Shown here: in pieces, positions 15,403-46,432 of the stretch
Position numbering within the stretch: position 1 is the first letter of the stretch
Layout of the letters: each line of letters starts with the position of its first letter
Assembly (NCBI GenBank): GCA_003963305.1
Contig: RXJR01000003.1
Coordinates: 177,706-241,705 of the forward strand
Reading direction: 5' to 3'
DNA length: 64,000 nt
DNA from: Candidatus Melainabacteria bacterium
Lineage (GTDB): Bacteria > Cyanobacteriota > Vampirovibrionia > Obscuribacterales > Obscuribacteraceae
The notes under the pieces: generated by a model
Databases searched by the model: none
What the model saw: the letters and a program-made list of their open reading frames with translations, nothing else
Told to the model about the DNA's origin: nothing
Position numbers and translations under genes: made by a program

Positions 15403-15520
15403 GCGGTTGCCTTTGCGCACTGAATATGGTGCCTATCCCGAACATCTGGTCGGCAATCACACTCAGACCCGTCCTCCTCGGCGGCAGTACCTGCACGGAT
15501 TAATAATTGGGCCCGGTCAA

Positions 15521-15624
15521 GGTACAAATTGGTCACAAGGTTTGATTAGACTTAACTCACTCGAATAAGCTTTGCCGTTCCCCCCCCCAATTCGAGTTTT
15601 CAAATCCCCTTACTAAATAAAGGC
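15521..15624. promoter_or_regulatory. Shared upstream boxes of the first large membrane protein gene
   Basis: GGTACAAATTGGTCACA (15521-15537) and CCCTTACTAAATAAAGGC (15607-15624) also occur, the first without change and the second with two or three differences, in the same order before the paralogous gene at 18002. Spacing to the ATG is 39 bases from the second box here. They are candidate binding sites or promoter parts controlling both genes. Confidence 0.65.
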
Positions 15625-15662
15625 AGAAGGGCAGCGAGATATCGCTGTTACCTCTGAATGCG

Positions 15663-17663
15663 ATGAAAAATAACACCCCTCTGATTTCATCCATCGCCGC
15701 AACGATTCTGTTTTGCGGATTAAGTACTGCGGTTCAAGCCTCGTACAGCGGCACGATGAACACTCCCAACATGCGGAGTTATCGAGACAAGCAGTCACAG
15801 GCGTACACTGGTCAGCAGAAGAAGGATCAGTCCGAGTCGCTCGAGCCTGCTAACCAGCCTGGTGCCGCGTCGCAATTGGGCGGCTACCAGCAAGGCGGCA
15901 CCGAAGGCGGTGATGGCAAAGACGCAGTCACTACTCAGGCTGGCGAGCCACAGGCACAGAAAGAGAAACCATCCAGTTCCGGACGAGACATCGACGAGGT
16001 GGCCCCGCCTGGATATACAGAAGTTCCGAAGTATCAGGGCAAAGACCACCTCGGTCCGCCTGCCGGCGACCCGCCTGGCTCGACATACCATCCTCCGATT
16101 CGTGTGAACGTCAAACTGGGTAGTGAGCAGGAAGATAAATCGGCTGACGATCACATGCCTGATTTCGGACCCGGCGCCGGCACAATAGCAAGCGTAGGAA
16201 CTGACCTGGTAACAAAGCAAGCCAGCGCCAACAAGCTTGCAGATCAACTCAGCTCACCCAACAACTTCGTGCAGACCTCCAAGGTAATGCAGGAAGCACA
16301 GGCACAGCAAGCATCCAGCGCGTCTGCCGAGGCGGCTGAGAACGCCATGGAGTCAGATATTGTCGTCATGCGTGAGACGCTCATCAACGTAGCCAACGAG
16401 GGGGCGGCTATCCCCACTACGACGTATGCGCCAGTGCGCCTGCTCTCCCAGGCGATCTGGATGGTTCAGCAGATGTTGAAAAACGTCTATGTGCCTATGG
16501 CGATTTTGCTAGTGCTACCGGGAGCGGTCCTGACGCAAGTTAAGTGTGTCGCTGCGTCAGGCATGATCGACCTCGAAGATGAAGACACGATGAGCCCTTT
16601 CACCGGCATCTTGCGCAGTGTCATTGCCATATTCTTGATTCCCGCTACGCAGTTGATAGTCAGTTTCGCCATCGACATTGGTAATTCGATGACTTTCGAA
16701 GTGCAAAAGTATCTGATTCCTGCGCAGATTCTCCAGTGGGCGAAGGAGCAGACATTTAACCCTCCGCCGACAAATGAGAAGAACAGCCTGGGCGGCGGCA
16801 CCTTGCAAAAATTGGCTGGAAAGATGACCGATTCTGCAGAAGGAGCGTCAGGTGTCGAGTCGCAGTCGTCTGCTACCAACATGATGCAGATGGGCTTCAA
16901 TTTCATGAACATGGCGCTGGGATTTGGCATGACTATCCTGCTGGCTTTTCAGATTGTGATGATGTGCTACCTGATGCTCATGGGGCCAATCGCTGCGGCG
17001 CTGTTCGCCTGGCCAACCAACGCAGGCAGTCTGTTCAGTAAGGTTTTCGCCAACTGGGTAGATGCCGTTACTAATCTTGCCCTCTGGCGGTTCTGGTGGT
17101 GTGTTGTGTTGCTGTGCATGTGCACGCGCATCTCCTGGTTGACGGAGCTAGGAGAATACAATCCCAACACACAGTGGGAGATGCTTGTCTTTACGGCATT
17201 CATGGTAATCCTGACGTACGTGCCTTTTATGCCTTTTGACTACAAACCAGGTGAAATGGTCGCTAAAGTTCTAGAAAAAGCATCGCAGGCTCAGCAGGGC
17301 GCAGGCGGTGGTGGAGGCGGCGGCGGTGGTGGCTGCGGTGGCGGTGCTGGTGGTGGCGAAGGGGCTGCTGCCGGTGGTGGAGCTGCTGCAGGCGGCGGTG
17401 GAATGCCGGAGGGTGGTTCCACACCGAGCAGCAACGGCGGCGGTACAAGCATGCAGCCGACTGACGTTCCGGCACCTCCGTCTGAGAACGGCAACGGTGG
17501 TGACGAGAGTCGGGGCGAGAAGGACAACAACGAAGGACCGCGCCGATCTGGACCGTCCGTTCTTGTGGCCAACCCACCAACTATGTCAGCGGAAAATGAG
17601 GTCAAAGTCGCGGATGCTTTTCCGCCGCCTCCGATGACGCGTCCAGAGCCACAGATGGCGTGA
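15663..17663 (+). CDS. Large polytopic membrane protein, paralogue 1 (VirB6/TrbL-like topology)
   Basis: A 666-residue protein with a signal-like N-terminus (ATILFCGLSTAVQAS). A ~230-residue Gln/Pro/Gly-rich soluble part follows, then hydrophobic segments: VYVPMAILLVLPGAVLTQVK, LRSVIAIFLIPATQLIVSFA, FGMTILLAFQIVMMCYLM, a Trp-rich helix near LALWRFWWCVV, and VFTAFMVILTYVPFM. A poly-Gly stretch (~545-580, with GGGG runs and one CGGG) and a Pro/Ser-rich tail complete it. The next gene repeats this plan and the VPM-ILL-LPGA-LTQV block. Five or more helices, large soluble ends and adjacent helices rich in Trp recall VirB6/TrbL channel proteins of type IV secretion, but no other secretion gene is nearby, so that is only a hypothesis. 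Confidence 0.72.
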   Translation: MKNNTPLISSIAATILFCGLSTAVQASYSGTMNTPNMRSYRDKQSQAYTGQQKKDQSESLEPANQPGAASQLGGYQQGGTEGGDGKDAVTTQAGEPQAQKEKPSSSGRDIDEVAPPGYTEVPKYQGKDHLGPPAGDPPGSTYHPPIRVNVKLGSEQEDKSADDHMPDFGPGAGTIASVGTDLVTKQASANKLADQLSSPNNFVQTSKVMQEAQAQQASSASAEAAENAMESDIVVMRETLINVANEGAAIPTTTYAPVRLLSQAIWMVQQMLKNVYVPMAILLVLPGAVLTQVKCVAASGMIDLEDEDTMSPFTGILRSVIAIFLIPATQLIVSFAIDIGNSMTFEVQKYLIPAQILQWAKEQTFNPPPTNEKNSLGGGTLQKLAGKMTDSAEGASGVESQSSATNMMQMGFNFMNMALGFGMTILLAFQIVMMCYLMLMGPIAAALFAWPTNAGSLFSKVFANWVDAVTNLALWRFWWCVVLLCMCTRISWLTELGEYNPNTQWEMLVFTAFMVILTYVPFMPFDYKPGEMVAKVLEKASQAQQGAGGGGGGGGGGCGGGAGGGEGAAAGGGAAAGGGGMPEGGSTPSSNGGGTSMQPTDVPAPPSENGNGGDESRGEKDNNEGPRRSGPSVLVANPPTMSAENEVKVADAFPPPPMTRPEPQMA

Positions 17664-18001
17664 TACAGGTAATTTCTGTGTTTTTAAACTGATATCAGTT
17701 TAAAATCGCCCCTGGGTAGCAAAAAGCAATACTGGTGAGGCATTCAGCAATTGAAACTGGGTGCCGACAGCTCCAGCAATTCGGCAGTCCGATTTAATGA
17801 ACAAAACGCTGAAATTTCGGGGTTTTCGACATTTGTGACCTTACAGGTACAAATTGGTCACACTCTTTCATTAGTATGAATTCACTCGGACCCCACCCAT
17901 CACTTCACCGAGTTTAAGTCCCTTACTAAATTCAAGGCGAAAGCAACGATTGATTCGTTGTCTCTTTTTTGCGCCACCCGATTCTAAAGCTGAGGATTCA
18001 G
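17664..18001. promoter_or_regulatory. Regulatory gap between the two paralogues
   Basis: No gene. From left to right it holds a 24-bp palindrome (17682-17705), TGTGACC at 17834-17840 facing GGTCACA at 17856-17862 (inverted seven-base arms around a 15-base middle), and the boxes GGTACAAATTGGTCACA (17846-17862) and CCCTTACTAAATTCAAGGCG (17920-17939), which match those before 15663. The first box to ATG distance is 156 bases here and 142 bases before the first gene. Confidence 0.65.
17682..17705. promoter_or_regulatory. Perfect 24-bp palindrome
   Basis: The half-site TTTTAAACTGAT is followed directly by its exact reverse complement. It lies 19 bases after the stop of the first paralogue. As RNA it would form a stem without loop bases and no T run follows, so a protein-binding site is at least as likely as a terminator. 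Confidence 0.75.
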
Positions 18002-21000
18002 ATGACCCCTTCTAAAACATTCTGGTTAACGACAGCTCTTGCAGTTTCACTTTTTGCTGGAGCCGCAGCTAATGCGAGTCCTAGCTCCGGAAACGGAATG
18101 AATCGTTATGAGATTAGCGCAAAGAATCAAGACACCGCTAACTCCCATATCTACCCTCGACAAATGGGTGGCGACAACAATGTCCAAGACCAGAAGGCTC
18201 AGGTAGACGAAGACTTCGGCTCTGATCTTGCTAAGCAAGGCACCCCGATGCTGACGGATATCATTCCGTCCTCTTCGGTGAAAGTTAAGATGGAGACTGG
18301 TGCAAAGAAGCAGGCTGAAGCCGATTTCCCTTGGAAGGGCAAAGCAGCGACTGAAAGATTGACAGCAGCTGCGGCTCTCGTTAATCAGCAGATCGCTGAC
18401 AAGGAATTGGTCGGTAAGTTGAGCGAGCCCGGCAGATGGGTAAAGCCTGCTCAGGCTGCTGCACAAGCTCAAGCGACCAATGCCGGTAATGCTGCCGCAG
18501 AAGTTTCTCGAGATCAAGCATCCAGTGCCATTGACTTTTGTGCTCACTACCTCCATAACTTCACTGTAGATGGTGGCAACAAGTGGAATCTGCTGCGCAA
18601 CAACATCTTCGTACCGATGGGCATCTTGTTGCTGCTTCCTGGTGCATTGTTGACTCAAGTGCGCGCCATCATGGCTGCCGGCAATCCTGTGCTGGGCAAC
18701 ATCAACCCGCTCGAAGGCATCATGCGTTCAGTGATCGCCATATTTTTGATCCCTGGAACTTATCTGGTCGTCAACTACAGTATCGATTTGTCCAACTCGA
18801 TCACATTTACCATCAATTCTGAGTACTTCCGCCTTTTCGGTTCGGATATGTATAAAGATGCAATTTGCGCCGAAATCCGCGCCTTCCCAGTGCGTGGTGA
18901 GCAAGAGAATCGTAACGCTCTCGACTTGCCTGTTCCTGCGATGACTCCGCTCGTAAATCCAGGTGGATTGTTCGCGCAATTTGAAGGCATGATGGAGAAC
19001 AAAATCGAAGATCCTTGCTCGGGTCTCTATCAAGCACCAGGTGGACGTGCCGATGAAGCGATGTCGTCCAGCAGTGTTGCCGCTCGTCTCGGTTTGAACG
19101 GAAGTAACGCAGCTCTCACAGCTTCATGGAACATTCTCTGTGCTTTCCAAATGGCTTACCTCTATTACCTCTGGTTTGTTGGACCAGTAGCAGCTGGGCT
19201 CTGGGTATGGCCGATGAAGCAGCTGCGCGGTGCTCTGCCAAGCTGGGTTGAAGGTGTCATCACCCTTGCTTTCTGGAGCTTGTTCTGGAATACAGCTATT
19301 CTCCTCATTGCCTGCTTCAAGGGCGTCGGCGAAACCGGATGCGTGCTTATGACTGCATTGCACTTCCTGGCTACCGCTTCCGTTAAACATGCATTCGATT
19401 TTGCTGGTCTCGTCCGCGCCGCAGGTCAGGAAGCTGCCAATATGGCCGAGAAAGCCATGAAGAGCGGCGGTGCCGGTGGCGGTGCTGGTGGTGGTGGCGG
19501 CGGAAGCTGCGGTGCTAAGGGTGGTGGTGCTGAGGGCGGTCAAGCTCCAGCCACCGCAGACGGTATCGGTGCTCTTTCGAGCAATTCGACTGCCCATGGT
19601 GGAAACGTCAGTGTAGCTTCCAACAGCCCAGTCGCCGCTGGTGGTGATTCGAGAGGGCTCGGTAGTAACGGACCAGTAGATAAGGCTGGGCTCAACGAAG
19701 CGCTGGCAATGCGCTCACTAGGCAAGGGTGAAGGAATGGGTGCACCTCTGGGCTCATCATTCGATGACAAGTCTTCGACAGACAAGTCTCTTGATAGATT
19801 GGCCGAAAGTGCCATGATTCCTCCTTCTGAGAAGAAGTTTGACGGCGACGTGTTCAGTCAAGAATCTCAGTACGCCTCCATGTTCTGCTCCGCTGAAATT
19901 GCCGACCAGTTGGCTGACATTCCTATGGATGGAGTCTACGACGCTACAGCTGATCTCGATGCTGAAGCCGCTGCTCAGTCAACAGTTGCAAACGAACTCT
20001 CCAGTTTGAAAGCTGCGGAAGCGTCGGGCTACGATGCGGCTGCTCTGGCTGCAGAAACTTCGCCTCCGCCGTCTGAACTTACCGCTGCAATGTTGGCTCA
20101 AGACGCCAAAAATGCTGAAGACGCCAAATTGGCTCAAGACCAAGCCAAACATGCAGGAACTGAGATGGCTCTAGCTCAAGCTGGCGCAAGAGCTCAGGAA
20201 GCAGCTGATGCTCGTCGCAGTGAACTTGAATCGAAGCGCGCAGAGAAGCTGGCAGAAAGCATCAGCACGCACATGAGCAATCTCAGCATGGCCGCCGCCG
20301 GTGCCGAACATGGTGCCCCGTTGGCTGGTGCTTCAGGCAGCGCCGGAGAGAACGGATCGCACGGCTCACACGGTGCTTACGTCGCCGCTCTATCTGCAGA
20401 ACTGCTGCGCGATGATGTCGCAAAATTCGACTTCACTAACTCACTGACAGACATCGACGTTGATTCCACTAGTCTGGCATCCAGCAACATGTCGAGCAGC
20501 TGGGTCTCCAACGAATCCCTCACATCCGCTGACCTTTCCAGAATCGAGTTTTCAGATATCGATAATATGGATGTTCTAGCCTCCTCCGGTTGGGTTGACG
20601 CCCTTGACGCTGTCGATGCATCGTCCGTTGTTAACAACTCGCTTTCCGCGAACGTAGACAGCTCAATCGTTGCCAACCCTTCGCTCTCTGCACCGGCAGT
20701 CGGCAATGTCACTCAATATGGCGATGTCACCACATATGGAGGCGTAGTGCCTTCAGATATGATCGACCGCAGCGACCGCTCACTGGTTAATGCAAACGCC
20801 TACAACTCGGCAAATTCATATAACTCAGCTAATGCATATGTCGCGAACGACTCATACAGTGCGCCGCTTGTTACCAATGCTTCAGCTGTGCCTGCAATTT
20901 CCGGAACACAGGTGGACGCCAACTCAGTAGTATCGAATGCAGTTTACTCAGCCCAGGCTGTATCTGGTAATGTCGTAGCCGCTGTAGAGAACTACAACAC

Positions 21001-22339
21001 CATCCCGACTGGTGCTCACGCATCGCTGGGCGGACAATCTACGTCAAATGAATACTATTCTGCTCCGAGCGGACAGACAGCATCAAGTGAGTACTATGCC
21101 GCACCAGCTGTAGCTGGAAACGTGGTTGGTTCCGCTCAGGCTAATGCCTACGCCGTTGACTATTCGAGTCAGTCAACAAGCAGCGCTCAAAATTCATACG
21201 CTGTTGATTATTCGAATCAGTCTAACAATGCTGCTTCGAGCTCTTACGTGGTCGATAATTCTTCGCAATCATCGGCGAACGTACAGCAGGGTACCCCAGT
21301 GTTTGCTTCGGTCTTGCCATCATCAACTCCGATTGACTACAGCGCTCCCGCTCAAACAATTACTGGTGGCACACAACCTGCAAGCAACGCCGAGTACTAC
21401 TCCGCTCAGGCAAACCCAGCACCGTCGATGGTATCGAGCACAAGCTCATATGCTGCCGATTACTCATCTTCGAATTCAGCACAAGCTCAATACGTTGCCG
21501 ATTACTCGTCTTCGAATTCGGCACAAGCTCAATACGTTGCACAGCAGAATTCGTCTTCTGAATATGCTCAGACTACCCAGTATGCGCCGGTTCAGGGACA
21601 GCCAAGCAGCTTCATCCAGCCAGGCGCTCCCGCCAATGAGTACTATGCTGCTCCTTCACAGTCTGCACCGCTGGTAGCTGCTCTGATTACTCCTAACCAG
21701 CCGATCGCAATCGACGCCGGTTCCGTACAAGCTCAACAAGCTTACTCTAGCCCGGTCCAATACTACCTGGCGAATGCAAGTGCACACGCAGAGAGCCGCT
21801 CTGTTGAGAACATTGCACCAGTTGAACGCACTCCAGTGCAGCAATCTTCTGATGTAGTCTATGCACGCTCCAACAGTGAAGCGTATACAACAGTTGCTCC
21901 ATACCAACATGTTGAGGGCACAGAGTCGCGAGCTGTAAGCTTTGCACCTGTAACTGCGCACAACGTTCAGCATGGACCGCAAACAGTGACTCAATCGGAG
22001 CAGTCCGAAGCGTATCTCTCCCAGCAGCAAGTGCACAGCAAGGTGCAGCAAGCTAATGGATTGATCAGCCGTATGAACACGATTCTGGCTGGATTCGATG
22101 CACCGCATGCAGTTTCTAGCAGCAACGCCACTACTCCAGCTGCCAACACCGCCGGCAATGCTAAAGTCGTTGCTAGAGCTGAAAACGCAGAGATGAATGC
22201 TCAGCCTGTTGCACAACAGCCACAAGCTAAGAAGTCCCTGCATGACCTGCTCCCAGTGCAGAGAAAAGCTAAAACTCCTCCGAAAGAAGAGATGGTAGTT
22301 ACTCCACCACCAATGTCTAACTCTTGGTTCGATGCATAA
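18002..22339 (+). CDS. Very large polytopic membrane protein with long repetitive tail, paralogue 2
   Basis: ATG 18002 has GAGG seven bases upstream and opens a signal peptide (TTALAVSLFAGAAANA). The product is ~1445 residues. The membrane part (~190-480) repeats the plan of the upstream gene: NIFVPMGILLLLPGALLTQV, MRSVIAIFLIPGTYLVVNYS, FQMAYLYYLWFVGPVAAGLW, FWSLFWNTAILLIACF. A Gly-rich hinge (~490-530) follows, then about 900 residues of Ala/Ser/Tyr/Val-rich sequence. Within it are repeats such as YAVDYSSQS / YAVDYSNQS / YVVDNSSQS, YAADYSSSNSAQAQ / YVADYSSSNSAQAQ, and EYYSAP / EYYAAP. The paralogue's tail is only ~120 residues. A membrane channel or anchor with a long disordered surface or periplasmic tail would fit; function unknown. 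Confidence 0.72.
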   Translation: MTPSKTFWLTTALAVSLFAGAAANASPSSGNGMNRYEISAKNQDTANSHIYPRQMGGDNNVQDQKAQVDEDFGSDLAKQGTPMLTDIIPSSSVKVKMETGAKKQAEADFPWKGKAATERLTAAAALVNQQIADKELVGKLSEPGRWVKPAQAAAQAQATNAGNAAAEVSRDQASSAIDFCAHYLHNFTVDGGNKWNLLRNNIFVPMGILLLLPGALLTQVRAIMAAGNPVLGNINPLEGIMRSVIAIFLIPGTYLVVNYSIDLSNSITFTINSEYFRLFGSDMYKDAICAEIRAFPVRGEQENRNALDLPVPAMTPLVNPGGLFAQFEGMMENKIEDPCSGLYQAPGGRADEAMSSSSVAARLGLNGSNAALTASWNILCAFQMAYLYYLWFVGPVAAGLWVWPMKQLRGALPSWVEGVITLAFWSLFWNTAILLIACFKGVGETGCVLMTALHFLATASVKHAFDFAGLVRAAGQEAANMAEKAMKSGGAGGGAGGGGGGSCGAKGGGAEGGQAPATADGIGALSSNSTAHGGNVSVASNSPVAAGGDSRGLGSNGPVDKAGLNEALAMRSLGKGEGMGAPLGSSFDDKSSTDKSLDRLAESAMIPPSEKKFDGDVFSQESQYASMFCSAEIADQLADIPMDGVYDATADLDAEAAAQSTVANELSSLKAAEASGYDAAALAAETSPPPSELTAAMLAQDAKNAEDAKLAQDQAKHAGTEMALAQAGARAQEAADARRSELESKRAEKLAESISTHMSNLSMAAAGAEHGAPLAGASGSAGENGSHGSHGAYVAALSAELLRDDVAKFDFTNSLTDIDVDSTSLASSNMSSSWVSNESLTSADLSRIEFSDIDNMDVLASSGWVDALDAVDASSVVNNSLSANVDSSIVANPSLSAPAVGNVTQYGDVTTYGGVVPSDMIDRSDRSLVNANAYNSANSYNSANAYVANDSYSAPLVTNASAVPAISGTQVDANSVVSNAVYSAQAVSGNVVAAVENYNTIPTGAHASLGGQSTSNEYYSAPSGQTASSEYYAAPAVAGNVVGSAQANAYAVDYSSQSTSSAQNSYAVDYSNQSNNAASSSYVVDNSSQSSANVQQGTPVFASVLPSSTPIDYSAPAQTITGGTQPASNAEYYSAQANPAPSMVSSTSSYAADYSSSNSAQAQYVADYSSSNSAQAQYVAQQNSSSEYAQTTQYAPVQGQPSSFIQPGAPANEYYAAPSQSAPLVAALITPNQPIAIDAGSVQAQQAYSSPVQYYLANASAHAESRSVENIAPVERTPVQQSSDVVYARSNSEAYTTVAPYQHVEGTESRAVSFAPVTAHNVQHGPQTVTQSEQSEAYLSQQQVHSKVQQANGLISRMNTILAGFDAPHAVSSSNATTPAANTAGNAKVVARAENAEMNAQPVAQQPQAKKSLHDLLPVQRKAKTPPKEEMVVTPPPMSNSWFDA

Positions 22340-33906: not shown

Positions 33907-35757
33907 CTAGAAATGAATTTTAGACAAACCTTGATAGAGTGTACGGTTTACAGCACCGTTGACGCCTACATTTATAGCGCGTCGTGTTGCGCCTTCAGTG
34001 ACTTTACTGGCGTAGTTCGCAGTGCGTTTTACAACGTTCGGACCGTTGCCACCGCCTTTATTGTAGAAGACTTGACCGCCTCCACCGCCACCAGGTGTTG
34101 GGAAGCCTCCCTTGAAGCCGCCTAGCCCGCCGCCGCCAGAGCCTGGAGACGGCATGATTTGCATGAGGAATTGCATGGCGCCTGCTGCTACTGTCGGGTC
34201 AATTGGTGGCAATCCAGGCAGTTGGATCGGGGCACCACCAGTGCTGGCACCCAATGCACCGCCGATGACACCAGCCGGAGTCATCGGTGCTGCTGCGCCA
34301 GTTGTACCTGTGCCCATCGGAGCCATCGTGTTTGCTGGTGGCGGTGTGCCACCACGTTGTTCTTGTTGTAAGACTTCACCCAGAAGCGGAGTGGATCCAC
34401 TGCTAGTGCTCGCACCGGTACTTCCCGGCTGTTGCCAGTCAGACTGTCCCGTCGTGCTTGTTTGTGGTGTTTGCCATCCTGACTGAGTCGGTGAACTCTG
34501 AGCAGGTTGTTGCTGGGCTGGTTGTTGCCAGGCTGATTGGCTTGGCTGTGCGCTCTGAGCTGGTTGTTGCCAGGCTGATTGGCTTGGCTGTGCGCTCTGT
34601 CCCGGCTGTTGCCATCCAGATTGTGTTGGCGACGATTGAGCCGCTGGAGTCTGCCAGCCAGACTGTGTCGGCGACGATTGAGCTGCTGGAGTCTGCCAAT
34701 CAGATTGTGTAGGTGTCGACTGTTGCGTCTGTCCGGGGAGCTGCCAATCTGATTGCGTTACTTTTGGTGATTGTAGAGTCGACCAATTGTTTCCTACTCC
34801 AACGTTGCCTATCGGGCCACTGGCGGTGTTGTCTTTAGAATGCTTGCTGCTCTTCGATTTTTTGCCGGAATTAGCCAAATTGCTGGTATCTATGTTCGGT
34901 GTTTGCCAATTCGACTGATTTATGCCGCTACCACTACCGGTGCTTGTTGGGGTTTGCCAGTCCGATTGGTGTATGCCTCCACCACTGCTGGTACCGGCTG
35001 GAGTTTGCCATTCGGATTGATGGATACCGCCACCACCACCAGAGCTGGTTGAAGTGGGCGTCTGCCATCCTGATTGGCTGGGCTGACTGATGGTTGTAGT
35101 TTGCGGAGTTTGCCAGCCTGATTGCGTTGGTGCTGGTTGTGCAGAAAAGGCGTTTGGCTGCTGCTGCCAATCTGATTGACCCTGTTGAGGTGTCATTGAG
35201 CCCTGGGGCATCGCTGCTTGCTGGGGCATGCCGCCTTGTTGCGGCATCGCAGCTTGTTGCGGTTGTTGCCAGCCGGACTGCTGAGGTTGTCCTTGAGGGG
35301 CTTGAGCCGGCCACTGAGCTTGTTGAGGTTGCTGCCCTTGAGCCGGCCATTGGTTCTGTCCCTGATAGGCCGGATAGGTCATGGGAGCTTGAGACTGCGG
35401 AGTTTCAGATTTGAGAGTTGGTGCACCGGGTTTGCCTGTGGCTGTCGGTTTTGCTGCCGCTGTTTTGGCTGTTGCAGCAGGTTTCGATGCTGCTGCCGGG
35501 GCTGGTTTAGCCGCAGGCTTTGCTGCTGTTGTGGTGGTGGTCGTCTTTGGTTTTGCGTTTGCTGCTGATTTTGCAGGAAGAAATGACCCCGGAGGTGCCG
35601 ACTTCCAGTCGGGCTGACCAGGACCGCCACGGGTTCCCGGTAATTCGAGTGGCGTTAAACCTTCGAGAGCCTGTGCTTGCGAAAAGGCTGGTAAGCAAAC
35701 ATTCGAGAGTGCTAGCAGACTGCAAAGAACAGACCATTTTTTATCGTAAAACATCAT
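33907..35757 (-). CDS. Exported Gln/Trp/Pro repeat protein (QSxWQ repeats)
   Basis: A 616-residue protein with a signal peptide (SVLCSLLALSNVCLPAFSQAQA) behind AAAGG. After a conserved-looking LEGLTPLELPGTRGGPGQPD and a Lys/Ala/Pro-rich segment, most of the protein (~120-440) is built from about 15 units centred on QS(G/D/A/E/N)WQ(T/Q)P with Ser/Thr/Gln spacers. The last ~120 residues turn Gly-rich (GSGGGGLGGFKGG) and finish with a basic, helix-forming end (NVVKRTANYASKVTEGATRR). One Trp per unit suggests a regular sticky or binding surface, perhaps cell-wall or matrix associated; this is inference. Adjacent to another secreted low-complexity gene that shares a single QSGWP element. Confidence 0.7.
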   Translation of the reverse strand: MMFYDKKWSVLCSLLALSNVCLPAFSQAQALEGLTPLELPGTRGGPGQPDWKSAPPGSFLPAKSAANAKPKTTTTTTAAKPAAKPAPAAASKPAATAKTAAAKPTATGKPGAPTLKSETPQSQAPMTYPAYQGQNQWPAQGQQPQQAQWPAQAPQGQPQQSGWQQPQQAAMPQQGGMPQQAAMPQGSMTPQQGQSDWQQQPNAFSAQPAPTQSGWQTPQTTTISQPSQSGWQTPTSTSSGGGGGIHQSEWQTPAGTSSGGGIHQSDWQTPTSTGSGSGINQSNWQTPNIDTSNLANSGKKSKSSKHSKDNTASGPIGNVGVGNNWSTLQSPKVTQSDWQLPGQTQQSTPTQSDWQTPAAQSSPTQSGWQTPAAQSSPTQSGWQQPGQSAQPSQSAWQQPAQSAQPSQSAWQQPAQQQPAQSSPTQSGWQTPQTSTTGQSDWQQPGSTGASTSSGSTPLLGEVLQQEQRGGTPPPANTMAPMGTGTTGAAAPMTPAGVIGGALGASTGGAPIQLPGLPPIDPTVAAGAMQFLMQIMPSPGSGGGGLGGFKGGFPTPGGGGGGQVFYNKGGGNGPNVVKRTANYASKVTEGATRRAINVGVNGAVNRTLYQGLSKIHF

Positions 35758-35815: not shown

Positions 35816-36763
35816 CTAACGTTGCAACATCCTCAGTCCTTGATTGAGTACGGAATTCATCATCATGTTCTGACCCATGCCCATGCCCATGCCGCCCATT
35901 GGCATGCCGTAGCCACCCATGCCCATTCCCATAGGCATCCCGTAACCACCCATGCCCATGCCACCCATGCCCATGCCGCCCATACCCATGCCGCCCATAG
36001 GCATGCCGTAACCGCCCATGCCCATGCCGCCCATCATCATGTTGCCCATGCTGGCTGCAGCCATGCCGGCCATTCCCATGCCTGCCATCGGTCCCGCCAT
36101 TTTAGCGACGCCTCCGAGCGCCTTTCCGAGTTTACTGCCGATACCCGCCTTCTGAGGCTGGGCTGTATCCATCGGAACCTGGGACGCAGTGTTGTTTACA
36201 TCGTTCGGGTTGGGATAATCTGCTTGCCAGCCGGGTGGAGAAGCAGGTGCCGAAGCCTGCTGGCTCTGCGGCGGATACTGCGGTTGTTGCTGCTGTGCAT
36301 AACCCTGCTGAGGATACTGGGGCGGTGCGCCGCCGTATCCCTGCGGTGGCAGTTGACCTGGAGCTTGCTGACTGACCGGGTATCCTTGCAATTGCCCGGG
36401 TTGAATCTGCGGTTGTTGCTGCTGAAACTGTGTATAACCCTGCATAGTTTGTGCCGGAACTGATGTCCCATATGGATTTGGGTCATTTGATGGCAGGATA
36501 GGTTGTGGTTGGTAAGAAGGATTTTGCGGAGGTGGCGCCGGCATCGAGGAAGTGTTGCCGGGGTTCGACTGCCATTGCGGTGGAGTATTCGGCCATCCGC
36601 TCTGCTGGGCAATCACCGGACCGCCCTGATAGACGCCCGGTAAGATTTGAGAGCCTGGTGGTGCGTTGGAATCAGCCAGGGCAAGCTGTGTGCTGCCAAC
36701 CAGAGCCATTACGGCGAGGGAAAGACAGTTGCGCAACGATTCCAACTTGGGAAAACGTTCCAT
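35816..36763 (-). CDS. Exported Pro/Gln-rich protein with Met/Gly repeat C-terminus
   Basis: ATG 36763 has GGAG five bases upstream and leads into a signal peptide (LSLAVMALVGSTQLALA). Residues ~35-200 are Pro/Gln/Asn/Tyr-rich. After a helical GIGSKLGKALGGVAKM segment the last ~100 residues consist of GMGMGGYGMPMG-type repeats, with roughly one residue in three methionine. Exported Met-rich segments often bind copper(I) or silver, but there is no neighbouring copper gene, so this remains a guess. The nucleotide repeats (CCCATGCC-type on the plus strand) are nearly perfect and likely unstable. Confidence 0.68.
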   Translation of the reverse strand: MERFPKLESLRNCLSLAVMALVGSTQLALADSNAPPGSQILPGVYQGGPVIAQQSGWPNTPPQWQSNPGNTSSMPAPPPQNPSYQPQPILPSNDPNPYGTSVPAQTMQGYTQFQQQQPQIQPGQLQGYPVSQQAPGQLPPQGYGGAPPQYPQQGYAQQQQPQYPPQSQQASAPASPPGWQADYPNPNDVNNTASQVPMDTAQPQKAGIGSKLGKALGGVAKMAGPMAGMGMAGMAAASMGNMMMGGMGMGGYGMPMGGMGMGGMGMGGMGMGGYGMPMGMGMGGYGMPMGGMGMGMGQNMMMNSVLNQGLRMLQR

Positions 36764-36932
36764 TATATCTCCAAACAAATGTAATCCTCATTATGTGGCC
36801 GATTTTAGTTTTCAAGCAACTAAATTCTTCGGAAATGCGCAATTTTGCAAGGATTTTGGCAAAAAACTGGAATCGCACTCCGAAATCACTCTTTAACGGT
36901 CTTCAGGAGAGGCAATGGACAGGTGTGAAAGT

Positions 36933-45298: not shown

Positions 45299-46192
45299 CT
45301 ATTTTGCCCAGGGAACGCTGTTTATGTCTTTTGGCAGCGGGCTGCCACTAGCTCCCCAATTATTGTCGGAGCCGTAACTGTCGTAATAATTTCTCGGTTG
45401 ATTTTTGGTCGGAGGAGCCGCCGGCGCTGTGACCGCGGTGGAACCGGAGGCGTAGTAACCTCCAGAGGCGGTGGGATCAGCTGTCGCCGGCTGATAATAA
45501 TTTCCTGAGGATGGGCTGGGTCCTGTCTGGATGACACGATTGGGTACTGTGCCATGAAACGAACCACCGAATCCGGTTCCCATAAAAGCCGGATTTCCTA
45601 TGCCACCAAATCCGAAGCCGCCATAATTGACGGAAGAGAAGGCTGACCAGCCGCGCCCCCATCCTCCTCCCCAGGCACCACCGCCCCAGCCGCCGCCCCA
45701 ACCTCCAAGCGACCTGCCGACGAATGGTAATCCGAACGATCCAACATAAGGAACAGCTGGAATTCCAAAACCGCCTAAACCAAAACCACCTAAACCAAAA
45801 CCGCCTGCGTAAGGGATTCTTCCGAGTGCCGCAGAACCGATGCCTGTTCCCCAGCCACCATAAGTTGGCAGAAATGGAGAGCCCCACAACGGTCTCGGCG
45901 CTCCGTAAAGAGCGGGAGTTGAAAGGAAGTTCGGATTCAATCCGGCGTTGGCAACGGATGCGGGATTCAGCACGTTGAGCGGGTTAGTGGTATCACTCGT
46001 GGTACCCGGTGTGAATATTTGGGCAGGAACTACAGTAGGAGCGACATAAGGCCAACCTTGTGAAGCACCGGGAACGCTAAAGTGACCTACCTGAACGCTG
46101 TCGGTCGCCTCGGCGTTGGAAGAGAAAGCCAGAGTCATAAGCCCTGCGGCGGTGACAGCGACCGTGTTCAGCTTCAACAGACCTTTGTGCAT
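45299..46192 (-). CDS. Exported Gly/aromatic-rich protein
   Basis: ATG 46192 follows AGGGAG by six bases and opens a signal peptide (LKLNTVAVTAAGLMTLAFSS..AEA). The ~297-residue product is rich in Gly, Phe, Trp, Tyr and Pro, with repeats such as GFGLGGFGLGGFGIP and GGWGGGWGGGAWGGGWGRG in the middle and a Tyr/Pro/Thr-rich end. Such sequences are typical of secreted structural or surface proteins. No family recognised. Confidence 0.66.
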   Translation of the reverse strand: MHKGLLKLNTVAVTAAGLMTLAFSSNAEATDSVQVGHFSVPGASQGWPYVAPTVVPAQIFTPGTTSDTTNPLNVLNPASVANAGLNPNFLSTPALYGAPRPLWGSPFLPTYGGWGTGIGSAALGRIPYAGGFGLGGFGLGGFGIPAVPYVGSFGLPFVGRSLGGWGGGWGGGAWGGGWGRGWSAFSSVNYGGFGFGGIGNPAFMGTGFGGSFHGTVPNRVIQTGPSPSSGNYYQPATADPTASGGYYASGSTAVTAPAAPPTKNQPRNYYDSYGSDNNWGASGSPLPKDINSVPWAK

Positions 46193-46432
46193 GCGCAACT
46201 CCCTGGTTACTTTCGGCCAGACTTTTGATTTATCGATCATACTGCGCACGGCAGAAAATTAGACTTTCTTTTCGCGGAACATGATTATGGGGTTGCGCGT
46301 CTTAACCGTTATTGAAGGTTCTGATGCGAAGGCCCAGACCCTGGGGTATTCGCGCGCGCTGGTGGGTTACGAAATGGTGCTCAGGACTACATCTTCAATG
46401 CATATTCCTGTACGGATCTGGAGTCTTAGCCA

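Follow-up and report, generated by a model that had tools for sequence, protein, structure and literature searches.

Type IV secretion systems (T4SS) with an extended VirB6 subunit have been described before. Anaplasma carries the extended VirB6 paralogues of Rickettsiales, VirB6-1 to VirB6-4, some of which end in very long, hydrophilic and strain-variable C-terminal tails, and surface exposure was reported for the tails of VirB6-3 and VirB6-4 (PMC7648143). The part of the same source that deals with TraG of F-type systems describes it as an extended VirB6, the C-terminal domain of which serves mating-pair formation and entry exclusion (PMC7648143). A recent review states that no role has yet been established for the long domains that extended VirB6 proteins carry (PMC12857230). 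Here we analysed a stretch of 64,000 nucleotides (the window; contig C3, 177706-241705) from a Candidatus Melainabacteria genome of 7.48 Mb in 44 contigs (GCA_003963305.1, the source genome, labelled G000). The nearest named relatives of this genome are the metagenome-assembled genomes (MAGs) SZAS-4 and palsa_1080, on the Obscuribacterales side of the non-photosynthetic cyanobacterial class; below, G-numbers stand for genomes, C-numbers for contigs and L-numbers for excerpted loci. The window holds a pair of neighbouring genes for a short and a long VirB6-like protein. We consider it rather likely that such pairs are exchangeable two-subunit extended-VirB6 modules of an order-wide T4SS, and that the window pair is a satellite of a core pair located elsewhere in the genome.

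As in the Rickettsiales, several VirB6 paralogues occur in one bacterium and some of them are long-tailed. The Rickettsiales paralogues, however, lie in tandem in one operon with virB3/virB4, whereas here the genes form short and long pairs, of which one sits in a core cluster while as many as seven are dispersed satellites; the phylum is another one, and the TrbL/VirB6 profile finds no match. With VirB6 of R388 (TrwI; PDB 7O3V, 8RTD; PMC9259494) there is a probable likeness in the predicted fold of the membrane part, and a likeness in the register of a GP...W signature and, for the core pair, in being encoded with a VirB3-like protein, VirB4 and VirB8, but the R388 protein is the 342-aa product of a single gene and has no long tail, while we find two diverged VirB6-like subunits, each with a predicted signal peptide and extended considerably at both its N- and its C-terminal end. 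F-type TraG likewise joins a VirB6-like part to an extended hydrophilic C-terminal domain, and the core VirB4 described below also matches F-type TraC; yet TraG is one protein per system, is found on conjugative elements and has no dispersed paired paralogues. Extended VirB6 is already known, and what is apparently new here is its split into two subunits that are duplicated and dispersed with variable tails. Within the same class, Vampirovibrio chlorellavorus has a T4SS whose VirB4 is reported to be T-type and closest to that of Nitrosomonas eutropha and which is carried on plasmids and one contig (PMC4451040), but this is a different VirB4 lineage from the core VirB4 found here. An earlier sequence-only reading of the window had raised a system such as that of Vampirovibrio as one possibility. 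This link is not supported, as searches of 13 sampled class members outside Obscuribacterales turned up no copy of the pair and none of the core VirB4 (V. chlorellavorus itself is not established among the 13).

The window pair and its VirB6-like membrane domain

Both proteins follow one plan: a signal-peptide-like start and a hydrophilic N-terminal region precede a polytopic domain, which a Gly-rich hinge joins to the tail. Judged by their sequences the two are paralogues and their likeness is beyond chance, with 35% identity over 249 aa in BLASTP and a profile-profile match between the short and long domain families of E 1.2e-48 over 265 columns in hhalign. The long open reading frame (ORF) was given by the program as 17969-22339, from an in-frame TTG that is a mechanical start; the ATG at 18002 is the likelier one, as it opens the signal-peptide-like MTPSKTFWLTTALAVSLFAGAAANA. 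The sequence-only reading had seen both ORFs and their paralogy, and these proved real, as did the exported N-termini (predicted for both proteins), the VPM-ILL-LPGA-LTQV block, the SVIAIFLIP helix, the Trp-rich helices and the Gly-rich hinge; its estimate of about 120 and 900 residues for the two tails came close to the lengths of about 110 and 950 that were found. The features of the locus, all on the + strand, are:

15519..15662, +, leader of the short gene, with a AGGTACAAATTGGTCAC block, a CCCTTACTAAA block and a short hairpin (from alignment to the long-gene leader)
15663..17663, +, short VirB6-like protein, 666 aa (ORF; orthologues or paralogues in 25/40 genomes)
15663..15740, +, putative signal peptide of the short protein, MKNNTPLISSIAATILFCGLSTAVQA, residues 6-24 hydrophobic
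16413..17342, +, VirB6-like polytopic domain of the short protein, residues 251-560 (alignment A2, 36 sequences)
17298..17402, +, Gly-rich hinge of the short protein, imperfect tandem GGN repeats
17844..18001, +, leader of the long gene with the same blocks as the short-gene leader (kept before both genes in two relatives, L073 and L074)
18002..22339, +, long VirB6-like protein, 1445 aa from the ATG (ORF)
18524..19468, +, VirB6-like polytopic domain of the long protein, residues 186-500 in the TTG frame (alignment A1, 51 sequences)
18866..19018, +, loop between predicted helices 2 and 3 of the long protein, bounded by a Cys pair at domain positions 115 and 165
19181..19246, +, GP...P...W VirB6 signature of the long protein, domain G220-P221 to W241 (invariance in alignment A1)
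19466..19540, +, Gly-rich hinge of the long protein, GGCGGT repeats
19469..22336, +, long Ser/Ala-rich low-complexity tail (composition; no transmembrane segment)
22307..22336, +, conserved C-terminal Trp motif of the long protein, PPMSNSWFDA (comparison of complete long tails)

The sequence-only reading had likened the pair to VirB6-type channel proteins. This plan is now supported by a match of the predicted fold, by the GP...W register in weak profile matches and by a paralogous pair in a cluster bearing VirB4 and VirB8. When a model of the long domain (pLDDT 81.8, pTM 0.74) was searched with Foldseek against 350,542 PDB chains, the top three matches were R388 TrwI/VirB6, with probabilities of 0.63-0.85 and weak E-values of 0.16-0.46, and VIA-align placed R388 TrwI/VirB6 at Z 7.9, 7.1 and 7.0 against 6.0 for the next row, with at most 233 residues aligned. 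Such scores, obtained with a predicted model, are by themselves insufficient to call the domain VirB6, yet VirB6 ranked first in an unbiased search. Both families aligned with ten plasmid VirB6 proteins at the GP...W signature, in the same register as GPIFI...W (hhalign E 0.0034 and 0.041, against E 0.39 for an unrelated membrane family taken as control). The signature residues G220, P221, P230 and W241 are invariant in the 51 long-domain sequences, and G191, P192, P201 and W215 are invariant or nearly so in the 36 short-domain sequences. Furthermore, the short family matched the VirB6 family of a second, apparently canonical T4SS, the C15 type, with E 3.3e-6 (hhalign). The core paralogous pair on C1 is encoded together with VirB4, VirB8 and a VirB3-like protein, the last being the weakest assignment; the window pair itself is not so placed.

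Cys 115 and Cys 165 of the long domain co-vary almost perfectly, as both are present in 34/51 sequences and one alone in 1/51. This suggests a periplasmic disulfide, and hence that the exported N-terminus would be followed by two membrane passes before the loop; R388 VirB6 has the same topology (PMC9259494). A sequence search of the PDB with the long-domain profile also returned eukaryotic WRB (E 4.7e-5), which was set aside: hydrophobic and coiled segments probably matched by chance here, because the alignment covers a variable loop and the invariant motif is lost save for scattered residues. Sequence searches of solved structures with the short-protein profile and with the VirB8-like profile found no match.

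The core cluster on C1 and its satellites

Within the window no further T4SS gene adjoins the pair, in agreement with the sequence-only reading, which had raised the possibility of an outlying piece of a dispersed type IV system and proposed a genome scan for VirB4, VirB8-10 and VirD4. The dispersed arrangement is supported, and the genome does encode a type IV ATPase, the absence of which was to have counted against that reading. Searched with the long-protein domain, the source genome yielded seven long proteins, all on different contigs and all adjacent to a short partner; one of the seven pairs lies in a core cluster on C1 that has a VirB4, and the other six, including the window pair, are outlying satellites.

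The C1 cluster encodes, in order, two exported proteins of 305 aa and 233 aa, a lipoprotein of 625 aa, the short VirB6, the long VirB6, a DUF2225 protein, a VirB3-like protein, VirB4, a membrane-anchored protein of 118 aa and a VirB8-like protein. A divergent arm carries genes for two TPR proteins, one small membrane protein and one that is TrbI-like. The ATPase (932 aa) is of the VirB4/TraC family, as shown by matches to NF045971 (E 6.9e-59), F-type TraC (4.6e-49), the TraG P-loop (8.6e-14) and the VirB4 structure PDB 4ag5 (E 3.7e-12); the match to CagE_TrbE_VirB in the source genome was sub-threshold (E 0.75). The VirB8-like protein of 202 aa consists of an N-terminal helix and an NTF2-like domain, and its model (pLDDT 82.7) matched VirB8/TraE/DotI/TraM chains with a Foldseek probability of 1.00 and a best E of 9.8e-4. 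When the VirB3-like and VirB8-like families were aligned to the single R388 VirB3 and VirB8 sequences, hhalign gave no signal; the VirB8 assignment is nevertheless settled by the fold search. The VirB3-like protein (130 aa) holds the VirB3 position directly before virB4, and an orthologue matched PrgI at E 0.0019, under the cut-off. Matches of the TrbI-like protein to PF03743 (E 4e-7 to 3e-4, in 4/5 members) were all under the cut-off as well. The gene order is kept across the family, and the core VirB4 was found as one copy, at 74-96% identity, in 27/27 Obscuribacterales genomes examined, the source genome included. A full-text search of the open literature found no description of a C1-type system in the order, and on extended VirB6 it brought up papers on Rickettsiales and a review. 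The core cluster is apparently an undescribed T4SS that is order-wide in Obscuribacterales.

The number of pairs varies from one to about eight per genome, and among the 40 genomes examined every one that has a pair also carries the core VirB4. In a phylum-wide search the long domain was found in 0/385 other sampled genomes. In adjacent pairs of the source and related genomes the short gene is always on the 5' side of the long gene; two pairs, that of C24 and its relative L090, are divergently oriented. The distances between short domains agree closely with those between long domains, both in 44 pairs, with a Mantel r of 0.85 where none of 5000 permutations exceeded 0.224, and within the source genome (r 0.91, p 0.002), indicating that the pairs duplicate and diverge as units, which fits an obligate partnership. 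The window pair is syntenic in the sister genome G001, where the same RND pump and regulator adjoin it.

The relation of satellites to core is best seen in G007. Its core runs from the lipoprotein through the VirB3-like protein, VirB4 and a 115-aa protein to the VirB8-like protein, with a gap of a few nucleotides at the place of the pair (L174); the pair and the DUF2225 gene are missing between the lipoprotein and the VirB3-like gene, the cluster is otherwise complete, and the only pairs of G007 are on another contig. A core without its own pair, in a genome that has satellites only, suggests that satellites probably plug into the core, and if the G007 core works at all, the outlying pairs must serve it.

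Other arrangements of the genes were also seen. A tandem array in G022 (L068, G022:C17:94000-113999) has a single short gene, after which come three genes for long proteins of 684-790 aa with almost no tail, and in G024 and G026 (L067, L071) a short protein is followed by a tail-less and a tailed long protein, so that the tail appears dispensable in some copies.

A second, apparently canonical T4SS cluster was found at G000:C15:203000-250000 (L116, L121, L122). It encodes a VirB2-like protein of 143 aa, a long VirB6-like protein of 1785 aa, a DUF2225-like protein, a VirB3-like protein of 112 aa, VirB4 of 942 aa, a protein of 224 aa and VirD4 of 1024 aa. This second VirB4, which is on C15 in the source genome and about 31% identical to the core VirB4, occurs in 25/27 Obscuribacterales genomes, and a VirB6 or VirB4 of the C15 type is present almost throughout the order. 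Orphan C15-type VirB6 copies with no VirB4 nearby were found at L167:4664-8605 (G000:C11), L168:6605-10975 (G001) and L169:6151-9801 (G002), and no secretion genes were seen around the C11 copy (L167); the second system, then, also has VirB6 satellites, on a smaller scale. In L170 (G002:C137) a short and long pair lies directly 3' of a C15-type virB6. Contig C26 (131 kb; L113, L114, L115) has three VirD4-type genes, each beside genes for a likely relaxase and an accessory DNA-binding protein, and these loci are probably mobilisation modules of a plasmid or of elements.

Variable tails and matched leaders

The tail of the window long protein was described in the sequence-only reading as a Ser/Ala/Tyr repeat tail. 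The Ser/Ala richness stands (A 18%, S 15%), but the tail is of low complexity with no regular repeat array, and Tyr, at 4.2%, is found mostly between about residues 960 and 1320. Among tandem repeats the most distinct has a unit of 42 nt in 2.5 copies, at 21437-21540. No transmembrane segment is present, the highest 19-residue Kyte-Doolittle mean being 1.11. When the protein was compared with two sister-genome orthologues, dN was about 0.05 in the membrane domain, with dS near saturation, and 0.34-0.59 in the tail, with many indels. The membrane domain is under purifying selection, from which it follows that the satellites are maintained, and the tails change about tenfold faster.

Despite this divergence the extreme C-terminus of the tail appears constrained. 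In 20/41 complete long tails one of the final eight residues is a Trp, usually that at -3 or -4, where 0.94 cases are expected and the maximum in 100,000 simulations was 7. The long proteins are related, so that this count is not to be read as a probability, yet the tails of distant paralogues are mostly unalignable, and the tails, about 550-1550 residues long, contain no more than 0-14 Trp each. Satellite long proteins often have the C-terminal Trp, core ones rarely. In the tails that were examined no enzymatic or toxin domain was recognised; the C11 satellite tail has a weak C-terminal TPR match (PF13424 E 1.6e-4) and the C22 tail a sub-threshold RHS-repeat match.

The two window genes each have a leader of their own, and the leaders match. 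Their local alignment scores 54, whereas 2000 shuffles reached 25 at most, and the pattern CCCTTACTA-N0-14-AAGGC occurs at 2 sites in the 7.5 Mb genome, which are those before the short and the long gene. The blocks are kept upstream of both genes in two sister genomes, and some other satellites are preceded by similar but divergent leaders. An Rfam search of the leaders gave chance matches only. If they act as promoters, such separate and matched leaders would fit a switchable cassette. The leader as a genome-wide regulon was rejected, the combined CCCTTACTA/AAGGC pattern being found only upstream of the two window genes.

Some further observations concern regulators, other tails and other exported proteins. 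Genes for OmpR-type response regulators lie beside or near three satellite pairs of the source genome (L021:13324-14070, L022:3618-4376 and L024:16137-16895), and two of the three are 88-98% conserved beside orthologous pairs in sister genomes (L076, L077, L083). The tails of other satellites appear to differ from that of the window protein (L020:7002-11798, L022:4421-9787, L023:4795-8946): they show stretches of YD/RHS-like beta repeats and, at the C-terminus, a helical hairpin of TPR type, for the most part below the Pfam thresholds. On the - strand of the window, 45299-46249 encodes a Gly-rich, probably exported protein that ends ...NSVPWAK, with Trp at -3 like the long VirB6 tails, which may be chance, and 33907-35757 and 35816-36778 (both -) encode exported proteins with many QSGWQTP/QSDWQTP-type repeats and Gly/Met-rich repeats, likely to be surface or matrix proteins.

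Probable exchangeable VirB6 modules and the alternatives

If the pairs are exchangeable modules, the short and long proteins most likely build the VirB6 layer of the secretion stalk jointly, as a mixed assembly seated on a platform of VirB3, VirB4 and VirB8 that all pairs share; R388 VirB6 is a pentamer at the base of the stalk. Alternative pairs, each with its own promoter, would occupy the VirB6 position by turns, and the long tail would pass outward, as a variable contact or adhesive surface or as a part that is itself delivered, with the C-terminal Trp motif perhaps acting as its recognition or docking signal. The interchange of pairs, the location of the tail and the substrates are what we infer here. 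The full scheme, in which dispersed two-subunit VirB6 cassettes, each with its own promoter, fast-diversifying tails and a C-terminal Trp docking signal, all serve a single unchanging VirB3/VirB4/VirB8 platform, and in which switching of cassettes changes the contact surface or specificity of the T4SS, is put forward tentatively, as a possibility that we hold below even chances.

Several results weigh against the pairs being VirB6 modules of the C1 system. The Foldseek E-values of the long domain are weak, a VIA Z below 8 may reflect a common helical arrangement, and the hhalign matches to plasmid VirB6 are sub-threshold. Searches of Pfam, NCBIfam, PHROGs and PADLOC with the pair gave nothing meaningful, so that no curated profile recognises it, and PF04610 (TrbL) had no match in the source genome at E 0.001, nor to either window protein; since a divergent VirB6 may escape PF04610, this miss lowers the case for a member of TrbL as drawn and not that for a VirB6-type protein. 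VirD4 is absent from the C1 cluster, the VirD4-type proteins being on C15, C9 and C26, and no protein of the core could be assigned to VirB2, VirB5, VirB7 or VirB9, for which the exported proteins of 233, 305 and 625 aa are candidates (no search aimed at VirB9, PF03524, was made). Genes that are duplicated together would co-diverge in any case, so that co-divergence is no proof of contact. Finally, the G007 MAG is 90% complete, and in it a short gene of one satellite is split.

Alternatively, the satellites could be inner-membrane complexes that act on their own, either as a channel of two subunits or in surface display, derived from VirB6 but no longer working with a T4SS. No other T4SS gene adjoins the satellites, which are derived clades with shorter short proteins and tails unlike those of the core, and the frequent C-terminal Trp sets them apart from the core proteins. 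Nonetheless, we regard this explanation as unlikely, considering that the core VirB4 accompanies the pair in every genome that bears one, that the otherwise intact core of G007 has satellites as its sole remaining pairs, and that neither an independent energy source nor an outer-membrane part goes with the satellites.

It was also considered that the long proteins are themselves T4SS cargo, the tail being exported as an effector or adhesin with the Trp motif as signal and the VirB6-like part as anchor. Fast-evolving tails with a constrained C-terminus would suit such a role, as would the other elements in some tails, namely the weak TPR of C11 and the sub-threshold RHS repeat of C22. The conserved part, however, is the membrane domain, nearly always paired with a short protein, and the lack of a recognised enzymatic or toxin domain in the examined tails makes delivery as cargo still less probable than autonomy.

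VirB6 genes are often carried by integrative conjugative elements, and the copy number of the pairs is variable, but descent of the satellites as decaying remnants of such elements is very improbable and was rejected, given that their surroundings showed no transfer genes such as a relaxase or integrase (no search aimed at relaxase families was made), that the window pair is syntenic in G001, and that purifying selection is strong and both genes are intact in nearly all pairs.

The C1 system is an apparently undescribed T4SS fixed in a whole order of non-photosynthetic cyanobacterial relatives. As it presents dozens of tail variants on one platform, the role of extended VirB6 domains becomes testable by comparison.

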